A stretch of DNA of 41,293 nt from Terriglobales bacterium (lineage in GTDB: Bacteria > Acidobacteriota > Terriglobia > Terriglobales > Acidobacteriaceae), in contig DASPRM010000056.1 of assembly GCA_035624455.1 (NCBI GenBank), positions 1 through 41,293 on the forward strand, written 5' to 3'. Shown one piece after another: positions 9,417 to 14,082 of this stretch. Position 1 is the first letter of the stretch. The number at the start of each line of letters is the position of its first letter. The notes under the pieces were generated by a model that made no database searches, was not told the DNA's origin, and was given only the letters and a program-made list of their open reading frames with translations. The translations under genes and the position numbers were made by a program.

Positions 9417-10736
9417 ATGGCTACCCAACTCGCAACGCCCTCTGCGGTCGATCAGCTTTGGGACCGCTGGCCATATCTCTCGCATGCTGAGCGCCTGAAA
9501 CAATTTCGTGAAATGCATACCGGGGAGAAGGCCAATTTCTTCCTCGCTCTGAGTCCCCATGACCAAGCCTTTATCTTGTTCGGCCTGCCCGAGGAACAGC
9601 GTCACGTGTGGTTGCGTATACTCCCGCCCGACGATGCTGCCGACTTGATTCAAGAAGCTGGGCCGGAATGGCGGGACAAGCTGCTAGCCCTCCTCGACGA
9701 ACCCACGCGGAAGGAAGTGCTTGCCCTGTTAGCGTACAAGGAGGACGAAGCCGGCGGCCTGATGAATCCGCGCTTCGCGCGCCTGCGTCCCGACATCACG
9801 GTCGATGTCGCGGTTTCCTATCTGCGTAAAGAGGCCCCCAGCGTGGTCACGATGTACTACGGCTACGTTCTTGATCAGGATCAGCATCTGTTAGGCGTGG
9901 TCTCAGTGCGGCAGCTCTTCACGGCCGGGCCGGGCAAGCTGGTGAAGGAAATCATGACTACGAAGGACCTTGTGTTCGTAAGGCCCGAGACCGAGCAGGA
10001 GGAAGTCGCCCGGGTGGTGCGCGACAACCGCCTATTGGCCGTTCCCGTGCTTGATGTCGAGCGACGCATGGTGGGTATCGTCACGGTTGACGACATCGTA
10101 GACGTGGTCGAGGAACGGGCCAGCCGCGACATCCAGAACATCGGCGGCATGGAGGCCCTCGATACCCCATACATGCACACGGCGATTCACGAAATGGTCA
10201 AAAAGCGTGCCGGATGGTTGGCGATCCTCTTTGTGGGCGAGATGTTCACCGCAACTGCGATGAGCTTCTTCGAGGATGAGATCGCCAAGGCGGTCGTGCT
10301 GGCGTTGTTTCTTCCGCTCATCATCAGCAGCGGAGGCAACTCCGGGTCCCAGGCAACGTCGCTCATCATTCAGGCCATGGCTCTAGGGGACGTCAAACTG
10401 CGCGACTGGTTCCAGGTGATTCGCCGCGAGCTGGTCTCCGGCGTGGCCTTAGGTATGATTCTGGGCGCCATCGGAATGACGCGCATTTTTCTCTGGCAAA
10501 GGGTGTTCGGGACCTACGGAGCACATACTCCGATCCTTGCCTTAACCATCTTCCTGGCGCTGATCGGAGTGGTAACGTTCGGGACGCTCGCCGGTTCGAT
10601 GCTGCCGTTCATACTACGGCGGCTTGGACTGAATCCCGCAAGCGCCTCAGCTCCATTCGTCGCCACCCTGGTCGACGTGACCGGACTCATCATTTACTTC
10701 ACCATTGCAAATTTCATCATGTTGCGGCACCTGTAG
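9417..10736 (+). CDS. mgtE: Magnesium transporter MgtE
   Basis: A 439-residue MgtE-family Mg2+ channel of the inner membrane. The layout is standard: an N-terminal helical superhelix domain (about 10-125; PPDDAADLI is typical), two CBS domains (about 130-255) that sense Mg2+ in the family, and five membrane helices from about 265 to the end. The pore-region signature SSGGNSGSQATSLIIQ is present in the membrane part. Length is normal for the family. The ATG at 9417 follows a strong GGGGGGAAG ribosome site by 5 bases. The gene is alone on its strand and converges with the membrane protein gene at 10917. Confidence 0.96.
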   Translation: MATQLATPSAVDQLWDRWPYLSHAERLKQFREMHTGEKANFFLALSPHDQAFILFGLPEEQRHVWLRILPPDDAADLIQEAGPEWRDKLLALLDEPTRKEVLALLAYKEDEAGGLMNPRFARLRPDITVDVAVSYLRKEAPSVVTMYYGYVLDQDQHLLGVVSVRQLFTAGPGKLVKEIMTTKDLVFVRPETEQEEVARVVRDNRLLAVPVLDVERRMVGIVTVDDIVDVVEERASRDIQNIGGMEALDTPYMHTAIHEMVKKRAGWLAILFVGEMFTATAMSFFEDEIAKAVVLALFLPLIISSGGNSGSQATSLIIQAMALGDVKLRDWFQVIRRELVSGVALGMILGAIGMTRIFLWQRVFGTYGAHTPILALTIFLALIGVVTFGTLAGSMLPFILRRLGLNPASASAPFVATLVDVTGLIIYFTIANFIMLRHL

Positions 10737-10916: not shown

Positions 10917-12374
10917 CTATCCCAGCAGAATCGGCAGCAGCACACCCAATCCCAGCACGAATAACCACAATGCCGGGGCCGGCGTGCCGACCGGGCGGAC
11001 GCGGCGCTGCTCTCTCATCGCGATCCGCGGATCCAGTAACAGCCATCGCATGTATCGCCGCTCGAGCAGAAGGAAGACAAAAGCCGTGGTCGCACCGTAG
11101 ATGAGGTGACCGGGAAGGGATGGAAGCAGAGCCGACGCCGCTTCGGTGCGCCAATCGCATTGTCCGGTTAATGCCAGCGGAAGGAGAGTCATCGGACCCA
11201 GATACCACCAGATCAGACCGAACAGCCATCCCCATCCAATCCCGAGTCCCAAGCTAGGAGCCTCGTTGCGAAACAGCAAGCCGTAGGTCATGCCAATTCC
11301 AGCGCTGACCAGTAGATGAACGACTACACCGCGCAAGCCGAGCAGTTGAGTGTCCAGACCAGCAACTCTGGAGACCACGCCTGTCGCCAGCATCACCGGG
11401 CTCGAAACCAGTCCGCCAGCCAATCCCGCCAGCGCTCCCCACTCGAGTGACCTGATCACGCGCAGCCCTGGCCCTTCCGCCTCCCGGTTCAGGGGGTCCG
11501 ACTGTATGAACAAACGCAACCAGAGGCGGTCGAGGGTGGCGTAAGTGACGCCCAGGATCAGTCCGTAGATGATGTGCCCTACTAGCGCGCCAAAAAGTGC
11601 GCTGCCCTGTTCAGCGGACCAGTCCAATGGAATGTGTCCGAGGAGCGGCCACAATGTGAGTGGACCCAGGAACCAGCAGAAGATGGCATAGCCCACTCCC
11701 CATCCCATGCAGGAGCCGTAGCCGCGCACATCTTTTTGGAATAGCAAGCCGAACGTAACACCCATGAGCAGCGCAATCGCGAACTGCCAGCTCATGTTCG
11801 CCGCGCGCGAGCTCAATTCGGGACCACCGGCTACCAACGGGAAAAATTCTCCCACCGACATCCACTGATTGAAAACGAATCCTCCCAACATTCCCGCAAG
11901 GCCGCCAGCCATGATGGCCCGCCCCCAACGAAACTTCGCCTGATCTGCATCACGCTGCAAGCTGCGCCTGAATCCCAGCGTCACCCCGACCGGCATTCCC
12001 AGGCAGATCAGGTAAGCCACCAGCGCCGGAAATTGCTGGCGAACATCCTGCAACATGGCCGTAGAATGCTCTGATCGGACGAGAAGTGGAACGATCCCGG
12101 CAGGCAACATCAGCCAAAGCAGAAACGCCGCGCCAAGACCCCAGATCAAACCCGCTCCCGGACTGCTGGCACGGTCGGCAAAGAAGAAGCCGAAGATCAG
12201 CCCAAATACCGCGCCCAACAACATGTTCTGCAGGAGCGAGTGGGTCAACAGCGCGCTTTGCGCGACCCCGCCTGCGATCCCTACTGCCACGCCCAGCAGC
12301 GGTGCGCTCCACGCCATCGTGCGACGATGCGTACCCAGTCCAACCGTCATAAGGGAAGTCTCTGATGCTGCCAT
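10917..12374 (-). CDS. Polytopic membrane protein of three tandem repeats
   Basis: A 485-residue, very hydrophobic protein made of three copies of a roughly 145-residue unit. Each unit has a Gly-rich pair of helices (such as [15 protein letters not shown], then GMTYGLLF), then a GWGxxYxxxxWxLGPxTLxPL block, a short DW(S/R)xE loop and a GHxIYGxxLG helix. The second halves fall at about 75-136, 222-284 and 378-440. I do not recognise the family. The neighbouring NADH dehydrogenase, upstream in the same operon, carries one such unit at its N-terminus, so the two probably assemble or act together. The ATG at 12374 follows TAGGAG, in which TAG is the stop codon of the upstream gene, so translation is likely coupled. 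Confidence 0.8.
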
Positions 12375-12384
12375 CGAAGCGCTC

Positions 12385-14082
12385 CTACCGCAAATCAATT
12401 GTCTGCACAATATCGCGCGGGAAGAACAGCTCCACCGTCCAATCCATGAGCACTCGAATCTTGCGCTCCAGTCCGGGCAGTTTCGAAAGGTAAATGCCGC
12501 GCCACATCAGCCACGCCAGCAACCCCGAGAAGCGCAGCGACTTGCTCCGCGCGAAGGGCACAGTGAGCTCGGCACAGGCGGTCTGGTGCCCCACCACGCA
12601 GAGTGCGCCAAGAGAATCGAAATGAAAACCTTGTGGCGGCCGTTCTTCCAGTTCAGCACGGATATTTCTTGCCAGCACCGCTGCCTCACGCAGCGCGAAC
12701 TGGGCAGTAGGCGGGCAGGGCTTGCCCGACCTGGCGTCCACGACTGCCGCGCAATCTCCCAGCGCCCAAACTCCCGGATGTCCGGGAACAGCCAGAGTTG
12801 GTTTGACCACCACTGCACCGCGTTTATCGCGTTCCAGCGGCAGCGATTTCAGAAGCGGATTAGGGGCAGTCCCCGCGGTCCACACCAGCGTCTCAGCCGG
12901 AACCGGTCCATCGCTCAGCATCACCATTCCCGGCTGCGCGTCGGTGAGCCGGACATTCAGACGGAAAGTTACCCCGCGCGCCTCCATTCTTTTCTGGGCG
13001 TAGCGTGCGAGTGACTCACTCAGCTCCGGCAGAATGCGGTCACGCGAATGCACCAGAATTATTTGCAGCTCTTCCGCATGCAGATTGGGATAATCGGCCA
13101 GAATCCCATGGGCGAAATCATTCAGCGCGCCTGCCAGTTCAACTCCGGCAAACCCGCCGCCCGCTACAACGAATGTCAGCAATGGTTTTCGAACCGCGGG
13201 GTCCCGCTCCCGATCCGCTCGTTCGAACATCTCGATCACGTGATTGCGAATCCGAATGGCATCCAACAGGCTTTTGAAGTTGAAGGCCAGCTTCTCGATA
13301 TTGGCCATGCCGAGGTAATTGGAGACTGATCCCAGAGCCAGTACGAGGTGGTCATAAGGCAGCTCACGCCCATCTTCGCCATTGCCGGAAATGTCGGGTT
13401 CAAGCACAACGCGCCGGCCCTGCAGATCAATCGCCACCACGCGCCCGCGCATAAACTCCGTACGGTGCAGGCTGCTGCGCAATGGGGTGCTGATGTGACT
13501 GGGCTCCAGGCTGCTGCCGGCGACCTCGGCCAGCATCGGTGTAAACAGGAGGGCGTTCGTCTCACTGACCAGCGCAATCGAGACCGAGCGGTCCTGGCGC
13601 AGCTCTTCTTCCAGTCGCTCCGCCGTCTTCATTCCTGCAAAGCCGCCACCCAGGATGACAATTCGCGTCTTCACTTCAGGCGCGGCTTCGGCCAACTCTT
13701 TCTCCGGACCGAACAACATCGCCGCCAGGTCATTCAGCCCCTGGGTGATCAGGCCTAAAATGGCTCCATACATCACCCATCCGACCAGAGCCGGAAAATG
13801 CCCGCGCATTTGTTCAGCGCTCCACTCAGGCTTCTGCGTGGAGAGCAGCGGCACCGCGATTACGCTGATCAGGGCCCAGAGCGGTACACCCAAGGCCGCG
13901 GCAGCCATCATTCCATCGACATAGGTTCGGCGGGTCGGACCCAGCGACATGGCATAAGCCGCGCCCAGCGCGAGTCCCAGCACAAATGCCAGCGCCCCGT
14001 GACCCAGAGTTGAAACCAGAGCCATAGAGGCAATGGCGCCGGCCACGCTCCCAATTGCCCCTCGCCGGAGATATACGTTCAT
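12385..14082 (-). CDS. ndh: Type II NADH dehydrogenase with extra N-terminal membrane domain
   Basis: A 565-residue single-subunit NADH:quinone oxidoreductase (NDH-2). The enzyme part begins near residue 138 with the FAD-binding GGGFAG (145-150). A second GGGFAG (308-313) binds NADH, ALGDCA (440-445) contacts FAD, and an amphipathic C-terminal tail (about 522-560) fits membrane attachment. Residues 1-120 are unusual: four hydrophobic segments forming one unit of the same repeat that builds the next gene's product. Usual NDH-2 enzymes of about 400-430 residues lack this. ATG 14082 follows GAGGA; in-frame upstream sequence is not protein-like. The downstream membrane gene starts 10 bases after the stop, so the two form an operon. 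Inferred role: NADH oxidation into the quinone pool. Confidence 0.92.

Follow-up and report, generated by a model that had tools for sequence, protein, structure and literature searches.

The stretch of DNA analysed here, called the window in the following, comprises 41,293 nucleotides (nt) of a Terriglobales bacterium (assembly GCA_035624455.1, contig DASPRM010000056.1) and carries on its minus strand a pair of genes for an NDH-2-type NADH dehydrogenase with an N-terminal membrane unit (positions 12385-14082, 565 amino acids (aa), assigned by Pfam and a solved relative) and for a membrane protein with three repeats, here named P2 (10917-12374, 485 aa). The NDH-2 gene starts with the ATG at 14082, shortly downstream of a GAGGAAC sequence. 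Residues 1-125 of the enzyme (13708-14082) form the membrane unit, for which hydropathy, charges and profiles predict four helices (residues 8-26, 29-47, 62-80 and 98-116) with both termini inside (N-in/C-in). An EWSAEQ loop (residues 86-91; 13810-13827) is predicted on the outer side between helices 3 and 4, and W102 (13777-13779) occupies the helix-4 position at which stand-alone relatives of the unit and repeats 2 and 3 of P2 have a conserved histidine; the tryptophan is present in all seven fused NDH-2s. P2 is predicted to have 13 helices in an N-in/C-out orientation. Its repeat 1 (R1, residues 16-148; 11931-12329) has no histidine pair and a short connection between helices 1 and 2. Repeat 2 (R2, residues 149-303; 11466-11930), by profile the nearest to the NDH-2 unit, contains a DWSAEQ motif (11607-11624) and H267, and repeat 3 (R3, residues 304-452; 11019-11465), by profile the nearest to the stand-alone units, contains H353 and H423. 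A last helix (residues 466-484; 10923-10979) follows a conserved 11-residue segment.

The rest of the enzyme is a flavin/NADH catalytic domain (residues 138-565; 12388-13671; Pfam and alignment) with the motifs GGGFAG and GGGFAGVE. The double Rossmann family Pyr_redox_2 is matched from residue 140 on with 160.2 bits (Pfam cut-off 26.1), and the C-terminal domain NDH2_C (PF22366) is retained at residues 491-557 (12412-12612) with 37.2 bits (cut-off 27.7). The closest solved relative is the NADH:ubiquinone reductase 9mqy (E 1.2e-51, residues 138-552), and for none of the 32 solved sequences matching the enzyme does the best stretch begin before residue 136. The two Rossmann domains with their motifs, the NDH2_C domain and a catalytic part that aligns with 9mqy over its length are thus shared with known NDH-2s, but the polytopic N-terminal unit and the three-unit membrane partner are additions. 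A passage of PMC6167311 describes NDH-2 as a single-subunit, monotopic membrane protein and gives the motif AQxAxQ, which reads AQFAxR in the fused NDH-2s, with the first Q kept and the second replaced by R in 7/7. The monotopic part of this description does not hold here, as four N-terminal helices are predicted in 7/7 orthologues (hydropathy alone, threshold 1.0) and the charges fit N-in/C-in. Therefore, we call only the catalytic part NDH-2-type and regard the whole protein as a variant, which departs from the published description by its predicted polytopic unit and, if the complex proposed below is real, also by its partner. Within the open-licence literature (preprints and subscription papers lie outside this scope), no title describes an NDH-2 with an N-terminal membrane domain, and none found for yjlC/yjlD deals with an NDH-2 complex.

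Relationship between the N-terminal unit and the repeats of P2

The original prediction, made from the letters of the window, held that the N-terminus of the NDH-2 is related to the repeats of P2, and this was borne out. In a single BLASTP comparison, residues 1-136 of the enzyme aligned without gaps to 102 residues of R2 (31% identity, E 9e-10), and the only other match of P2 in its whole own genome was the NDH-2 N-terminal region (E 3.6e-6). For profile-profile comparison, the NDH-2 unit (N) and the three repeats were represented by seven orthologues each and set beside the stand-alone units. N matched R2 significantly (98.0%, score 80.5, 121 columns), followed by the stand-alone units (95.9%, score 56), R1 (89%, score 41) and R3 (61%, score 33), while the repeats matched each other at 99.7% (R2-R3), 96.0% (R1-R3) and 95.4% (R1-R2). 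Reversed profiles of R1, R2, R3 and the stand-alone units scored 15-18 against N, and reversed N scored 24. As a further control, 63 hydrophobic windows of 150 aa (105 minus 42 family members) were scored against N as single sequences; the top score was 37.5, from locus L030, which had itself been fetched on a marginal match to the N profile, the next was 21.0 and the median 13.5. Single family sequences reached 49-73 for R2 (n=7), 23-40 for R1 (n=7), 27-36 for R3 (n=7) and 19-41 for the stand-alone units (n=10). R2 is therefore clear of every control. Most R1, R3 and stand-alone sequences, scored singly, stay at or below the top control, so their tie to N rests on the link to R2, and R1 and R3 are connected to N mainly via R2 and R3, given the strong R2-R3 and R1-R3 matches.

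Independent of the NDH-2 sequences, a profile of 11 stand-alone units matches the N-domain in five of the six fused loci besides the window (E 1.4e-7 to 5.5e-6). Whole-genome profile searches, in which the best candidates of a loose first pass were scored (10 per genome for 396 phylum genomes, 14 per genome for 298 order genomes), returned with the N profile only fused NDH-2s and repeat 2 of P2 in the phylum set (two genomes of Acidobacteriota), and in the order set G000, G028, P2 in G610 and a marginal site in G625 (8e-4). Altogether, these comparisons leave hardly any doubt that the NDH-2 unit is homologous to the P2 repeats. The claim that all three repeats follow the plan of the unit stands as far as this homology is concerned (strong for R2, moderate for R1, weak for R3). 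It does not stand in two details: WSAEQ occurs within P2 in R2 alone (R3 has DWRTEA and R1 lacks the W), and the connection between helices 1 and 2 differs, with about 2 residues in the NDH-2 unit and R1, about 25 in R2 and about 15 in R3.

The unit is also a maintained part of the enzyme. An open frame with a start codon spans it in the window and in six relatives, instead of a start near residue 135, and 31 of its residues are invariant across six orthologues. The ratio of non-synonymous to synonymous differences (pN/pS) between the window and the six other fused NDH-2s is 0.37-0.54 for the unit, which indicates purifying selection; the value is rough, since synonymous sites are near saturation. 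The topology, for which hydropathy and charges alone are the basis, is consistent among the orthologues. Under N-in, lysines plus arginines inside and outside number 7:2, 8:2, 8:1, 8:2, 12:3, 10:1 and 10:2 in the seven units and 24:6, 22:7, 22:8, 16:13, 26:2, 24:7 and 21:4 in the P2 proteins. N-in thus fits the unit in 7/7 and P2 in 7/7, in the latter weakly for L006 (16:13), where a 14th helix is predicted. An N-in/C-in unit would put the flavin domain on the cytoplasmic face, as the oxidation of NADH needs.

Single units of this kind also exist as separate proteins. Ten of them (137-158 aa) match the stand-alone profile in the phylum, two weaker candidates were seen in G269 and G496, and a further one is encoded on a plasmid of Deinococcus taeanensis; the number of units per protein is one or three, and no other was seen. 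The stand-alone units match R3 (99.9%; 99.6% for the Deinococcus unit) and R2 (99.8%), but differ in being one-unit proteins that carry both histidines and several methionines. In an alignment of 38 units, 10/10 stand-alone units (11/11 with the Deinococcus unit) and 7/7 R3 sequences have a histidine in helix 2 as well as in helix 4. R2 has the helix-2 histidine in 4/7 and the helix-4 histidine in 7/7, and both are absent from R1 and the NDH-2 unit (0/7 each). The predicted topology places the R2 and R3 histidines within the outer half of the membrane. Among the 38 units, the columns that reach 70% conservation hold Gly, Trp, Pro, Leu and Phe; the sole recurrent polar columns found across the units are those of the two histidines, conservation within a single repeat being outside this analysis.

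With regard to known families, the stand-alone units resemble DUF6789, DUF1440 or YqhR below the cut-off, those of L042 and L036 hardly so. For DUF6789 (PF20587, cut-off 27.1 bits) the best stand-alone score is 23.9 and the Deinococcus unit has 23.5; the Pfam scan did not list this family for the P2 or the NDH-2 unit of the window. For DUF1440 (PF07274, cut-off 34.7 bits) the P2 of the window scores 31.0 and its NDH-2 unit 12.6, the orthologous P2 of G369 passes with 37.2, and all six P2 proteins scanned reach E 0.01 or lower, the best of them 2.4e-9. By these scores, P2 and the NDH-2 unit of the window are distant relatives of DUF1440 and not members. The namesake of the family, YagU from E. 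coli, aligns as a single sequence with none of the unit profiles and was therefore dropped as a yardstick for the histidines. A passage in PMC1626474 reports that survival of an E. coli yagU mutant at pH 2 is about threefold lower, and no title on the function of DUF1440 or DUF6789 was found in the open-licence literature. Above the Pfam cut-off, the P2 of the window matches no family of known function and no heme family; further matches of the window proteins, among others to ECF_trnsprt, ActD and DUF2456, lie below it. Among solved structures, the P2 profile has no match below E 1 (a single one at E 1.1 is taken as chance), and a sequence search with the N-domain profile gave no match up to E 10.

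The gene pair and the origin of the fusion

P2 is known from nine loci (the window, G028, L005-L010 and G369; G610 and L009, whose contigs share a length of 3514, are counted once). The contigs of L009 and L010 break off before their upstream gene becomes readable, which leaves seven testable loci, and the P2 of L009, fragmented over different frames at the end of its contig, was left out of the alignments. The co-occurrence of the two genes, which the original prediction had singled out for checking, is strict: the gene directly upstream of P2 is a fused NDH-2 in 7/7 testable loci, and full-length P2 and fused NDH-2 are found in the same 2/396 phylum genomes, which makes the module rare. The pair was also sought by strict peptide patterns in a collection of 84,980 species. 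Two weak matches of the P2 profile in G274 and G439 (about 4e-4) did not recur with the stand-alone profile at 1e-6 and are left out of the unit count.

In the window both genes lie on the minus strand with a gap of 10 nt, and the NDH-2 stop codon overlaps a ribosome-binding-site-like GGAG in the sequence TAGGAG (12382-12387). Over the seven loci the gaps are 10, 11, 9, 10, 2, 50 and 10 nt, counted to start codons of our choice (GTG in L005 and G369), and in 5/7 a GGAG-like site overlaps the NDH-2 stop codon or follows it by at most 3 nt. Short gaps and GGAG-like sites fit the translational coupling that had been supposed for the pair. A conserved third gene was considered and rejected, as the neighbours vary. 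L005 and L006 have DoxX and an MbnB-type enzyme. Histidine kinase genes lie upstream in L008 and also in L007, where a hydrolase gene intervenes; G369 has a subtilase gene downstream and G028 a spermine-synthase-like gene upstream. Therefore, we read the module as consisting of two genes.

Ordinary NDH-2s lack the unit, as had been assumed. The catalytic-domain profile has matches in 86/199 phylum genomes at E 1e-30, and 29 unfused loci (L050-L078) were taken as the top-scoring unfused match of 29 genomes, excluding lower-scoring matches and likewise the two more NDH-2-like matches in the genome of the window. In none of these 29 loci do the N, P2 or stand-alone profiles find a match within the enzyme or about 1.5 kb to each side, and none of them shows, within the same distance, the intermediate of an unfused NDH-2 beside a stand-alone unit. 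In a tree of the 7 fused and 29 unfused catalytic domains, the fused ones lie on one side of a branch with support 100/99; the fused/unfused state changes once, which 0/500 shuffles reach. As all fused enzymes fall into one clade, a single fusion event is enough to account for this 36-sequence sample. From the other side, the NDH-2 profile finds no adjacent NDH-2 in 13 stand-alone loci, the one weak match being in L041 (E 2e-5) about 2.7 kb away.

Membrane association of the enzyme and competing explanations

The shared unit, the adjacency in all testable loci, the occurrence in the same genomes and the short gaps support an integral-membrane NDH-2 with a dedicated partner, as the original prediction had supposed. 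Since the fused unit is related to the repeats of the partner, NDH-2 and P2 probably stay together in the membrane, and a physical complex of the two is likely. That the enzyme is an integral-membrane NDH-2 in complex with P2 and otherwise performs NDH-2 chemistry is the explanation we favour, with fair though far from full confidence. P2 would comprise three copies of a four-helix unit that also occurs alone, and a fourth one, which has diverged, would have been fused to the NDH-2. With both termini inside, the fused unit would keep the flavin domain on the cytoplasmic side and pack against the three units of P2 in a 3+1 membrane assembly, the simplest one. Two attachments would then hold the enzyme in the membrane, its own C-terminal NDH-2 domain and the unit of the partner's family, and P2 would be a membrane scaffold, a dedicated partner that fixes the enzyme. 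NADH would be oxidised in the cytoplasm and the electrons would pass via flavin adenine dinucleotide (FAD) to the membrane quinone through the retained C-terminal domain, with no pumping. The 3+1 packing, the order of triplication and fusion and the reduction of quinone are points that we infer. The own genome also has a complex I gene of the 49-kDa type, which is whole-length and lies at C29, and two further partial matches, in a search for the 49-kDa subunit family only, which includes hydrogenase relatives. This gene and the two further NDH-2-like matches suggest that the fused NDH-2 is probably an extra entry point for NADH.

Several observations weigh against this explanation. Contact between NDH-2 and P2 is itself something that we infer from sequence. 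N matches R1 only moderately and R3 weakly, the stand-alone profile misses the N-domain of L007, whose unit has an insertion, and the genome search with this profile (E 1e-6) listed R2 and R3 of G000 and G369 and the NDH-2 unit of neither. The tree of the units does not group the NDH-2 unit with repeat 2; the branches of the NDH-2 unit and repeat 1 are long there and drew a warning from the tool. The catalytic domain has a likewise rough pN/pS of 0.17-0.26, so that the unit evolves faster, as a loosely constrained anchor also would. The R in place of the second Q of AQxAxQ is a deviation as well, one shared by 26/29 unfused relatives. AlphaFold2 models of the single chains from 5-row alignments reached a mean predicted local distance difference test (pLDDT) of 47.1 and 49.8 and a predicted template modelling score (pTM) of 0.40 and 0.38; the helix positions agree roughly with hydropathy and nothing else is usable, so that with such low pLDDT values packing and fold were not modelled.

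In one competing explanation, the fused unit is a mere tether drawn from the family of P2, and P2 is a co-transcribed membrane protein that has a job of its own and forms no stable complex with the enzyme. The faster evolution of the unit, the absence of the two histidines that are conserved in the stand-alone units and in repeat 3, and the 33 alignment columns inserted in the L007 unit would all suit a tether. However, a tether need not come from the partner's family, nor need it be limited to loci with P2 directly downstream, and the 31 invariant residues of the unit also speak against a tether; we regard this explanation as unlikely. The histidines themselves invite two ideas about redox chemistry at the outer face. 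In one, electrons would pass from FAD to a heme b or a metal on the helix-2 and helix-4 histidines of R2 and R3, near the outer face, which would make P2 an electron-accepting subunit. The conservation of these histidines, their predicted place in the outer half of the membrane and the redox neighbours of some stand-alone units (cytochrome b and Rieske in L040, thioredoxin-like and DsbD in L039, also L042) speak for it. However, each unit has one histidine pair, on one side only, so that no chain of cofactors leading away from the cytoplasmic FAD can be made out; P2 shows no heme family above the cut-off, and other stand-alone units have different neighbours (DUF3641 in L035, thiolase-like in L034, glycosyltransferase-like in L041), which makes such a route improbable. 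The other idea, which we hold to be quite doubtful, is a multi-subunit enzyme with a closed pseudo-tetramer in which R2 and R3 with their histidines and R1 and the NDH-2 unit, which lack them, build a cofactor or quinone site near the outer face and link NADH oxidation inside to a redox step outside.

The handling of ions or quinone that the original prediction had considered finds no support for the added parts: the NDH-2 unit lacks the two histidines of the stand-alone units and of R2 and R3, P2 has neither a family of known function above the cut-off nor a solved match below E 1, and NDH2_C is retained. A role of P2 as an ion channel or pump that the NDH-2 drives, a minimal alternative to complex I, is highly improbable; solely the fact that P2 is large, conserved, membrane-bound and tied to an NADH dehydrogenase would suggest it, but the columns conserved across the 38 units offer no recurrent polar residues besides the two histidines, and a complex I 49-kDa-type gene is also present in the genome. 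There is next to no chance that the similarity is a chance likeness of hydrophobic helices or the gene pair an assembly chimera. The relatives are largely metagenome-assembled, the alignments are shallow and one unrelated control window scores level with R1, but seven separate loci have the same arrangement, the controls stay far below repeat 2, and the frames are open, without stops and under purifying selection.

An enzyme with one unit and an operon partner with three units of the same family make up a gene-fusion record that suggests who binds whom, and the pair offers a direct experimental route, by co-purification and structure, to a function of the unexplained DUF1440- and DUF6789-like membrane units. 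Should the partner share in electron transfer, this would be a new way of tying NADH oxidation to the membrane.

Further observations at the related loci

The insertion in the L007 unit (L007:3172-3654) falls between helices 2 and 3, within a loop predicted to be cytoplasmic. In L005 (554-2981) and L006 (1-2295), an MbnB/TglH/ChrH-type enzyme and a DoxX gene are found directly upstream of the fused NDH-2, in L005 together with a DUF2063 gene; these upstream genes may belong to an operon of the bufferin type for a copper-binding, ribosomally synthesised and post-translationally modified peptide. No Pfam family matched the small open reading frame L005:315-620. In the window, an MgtE-type divalent cation transporter gene (9417-10736, plus strand) converges on P2, and by eye it was not seen beside the pair in other loci.

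Two of the unfused NDH-2s (L066:1099-2784, minus strand, and L063:1408-3150, plus strand) carry a C-terminal cyclic-nucleotide-binding domain (PF00027) with 79.0 and 72.7 bits, respectively, and similar C-terminal tails were noticed by eye in those of L062, L064, L065, L067, L069 and L074. Like the fused enzymes, the NDH-2s of L063 and L066 have an extra domain and come from the same phylum, but the added domain is at the opposite end and comes without a membrane unit.

The surroundings of the stand-alone units are diverse. In L040 (206-3057), a unit directly follows, on one strand with them, a gene for a cytochrome b-cytochrome c fusion and a Rieske gene, thioredoxin-like and DsbD genes stand beside the unit in L039, and one such gene is near the unit in L042. 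Radical-SAM DUF3641 genes are near the units in L035:412-4548 (scanned) and L036:2526-6846 (same order by eye), and thiolase-like and glycosyltransferase-like neighbours were seen by eye in L034 and L041. On the plasmid of D. taeanensis (L085:3884-7866), the unit forms one run with a Crp-like regulator and a disulfide-reductase-type flavoprotein; this flavin oxidoreductase was rejected as an NDH-2 intermediate, since its dimerisation domain is of the disulfide-reductase type and its match to the NDH-2 is very poor.
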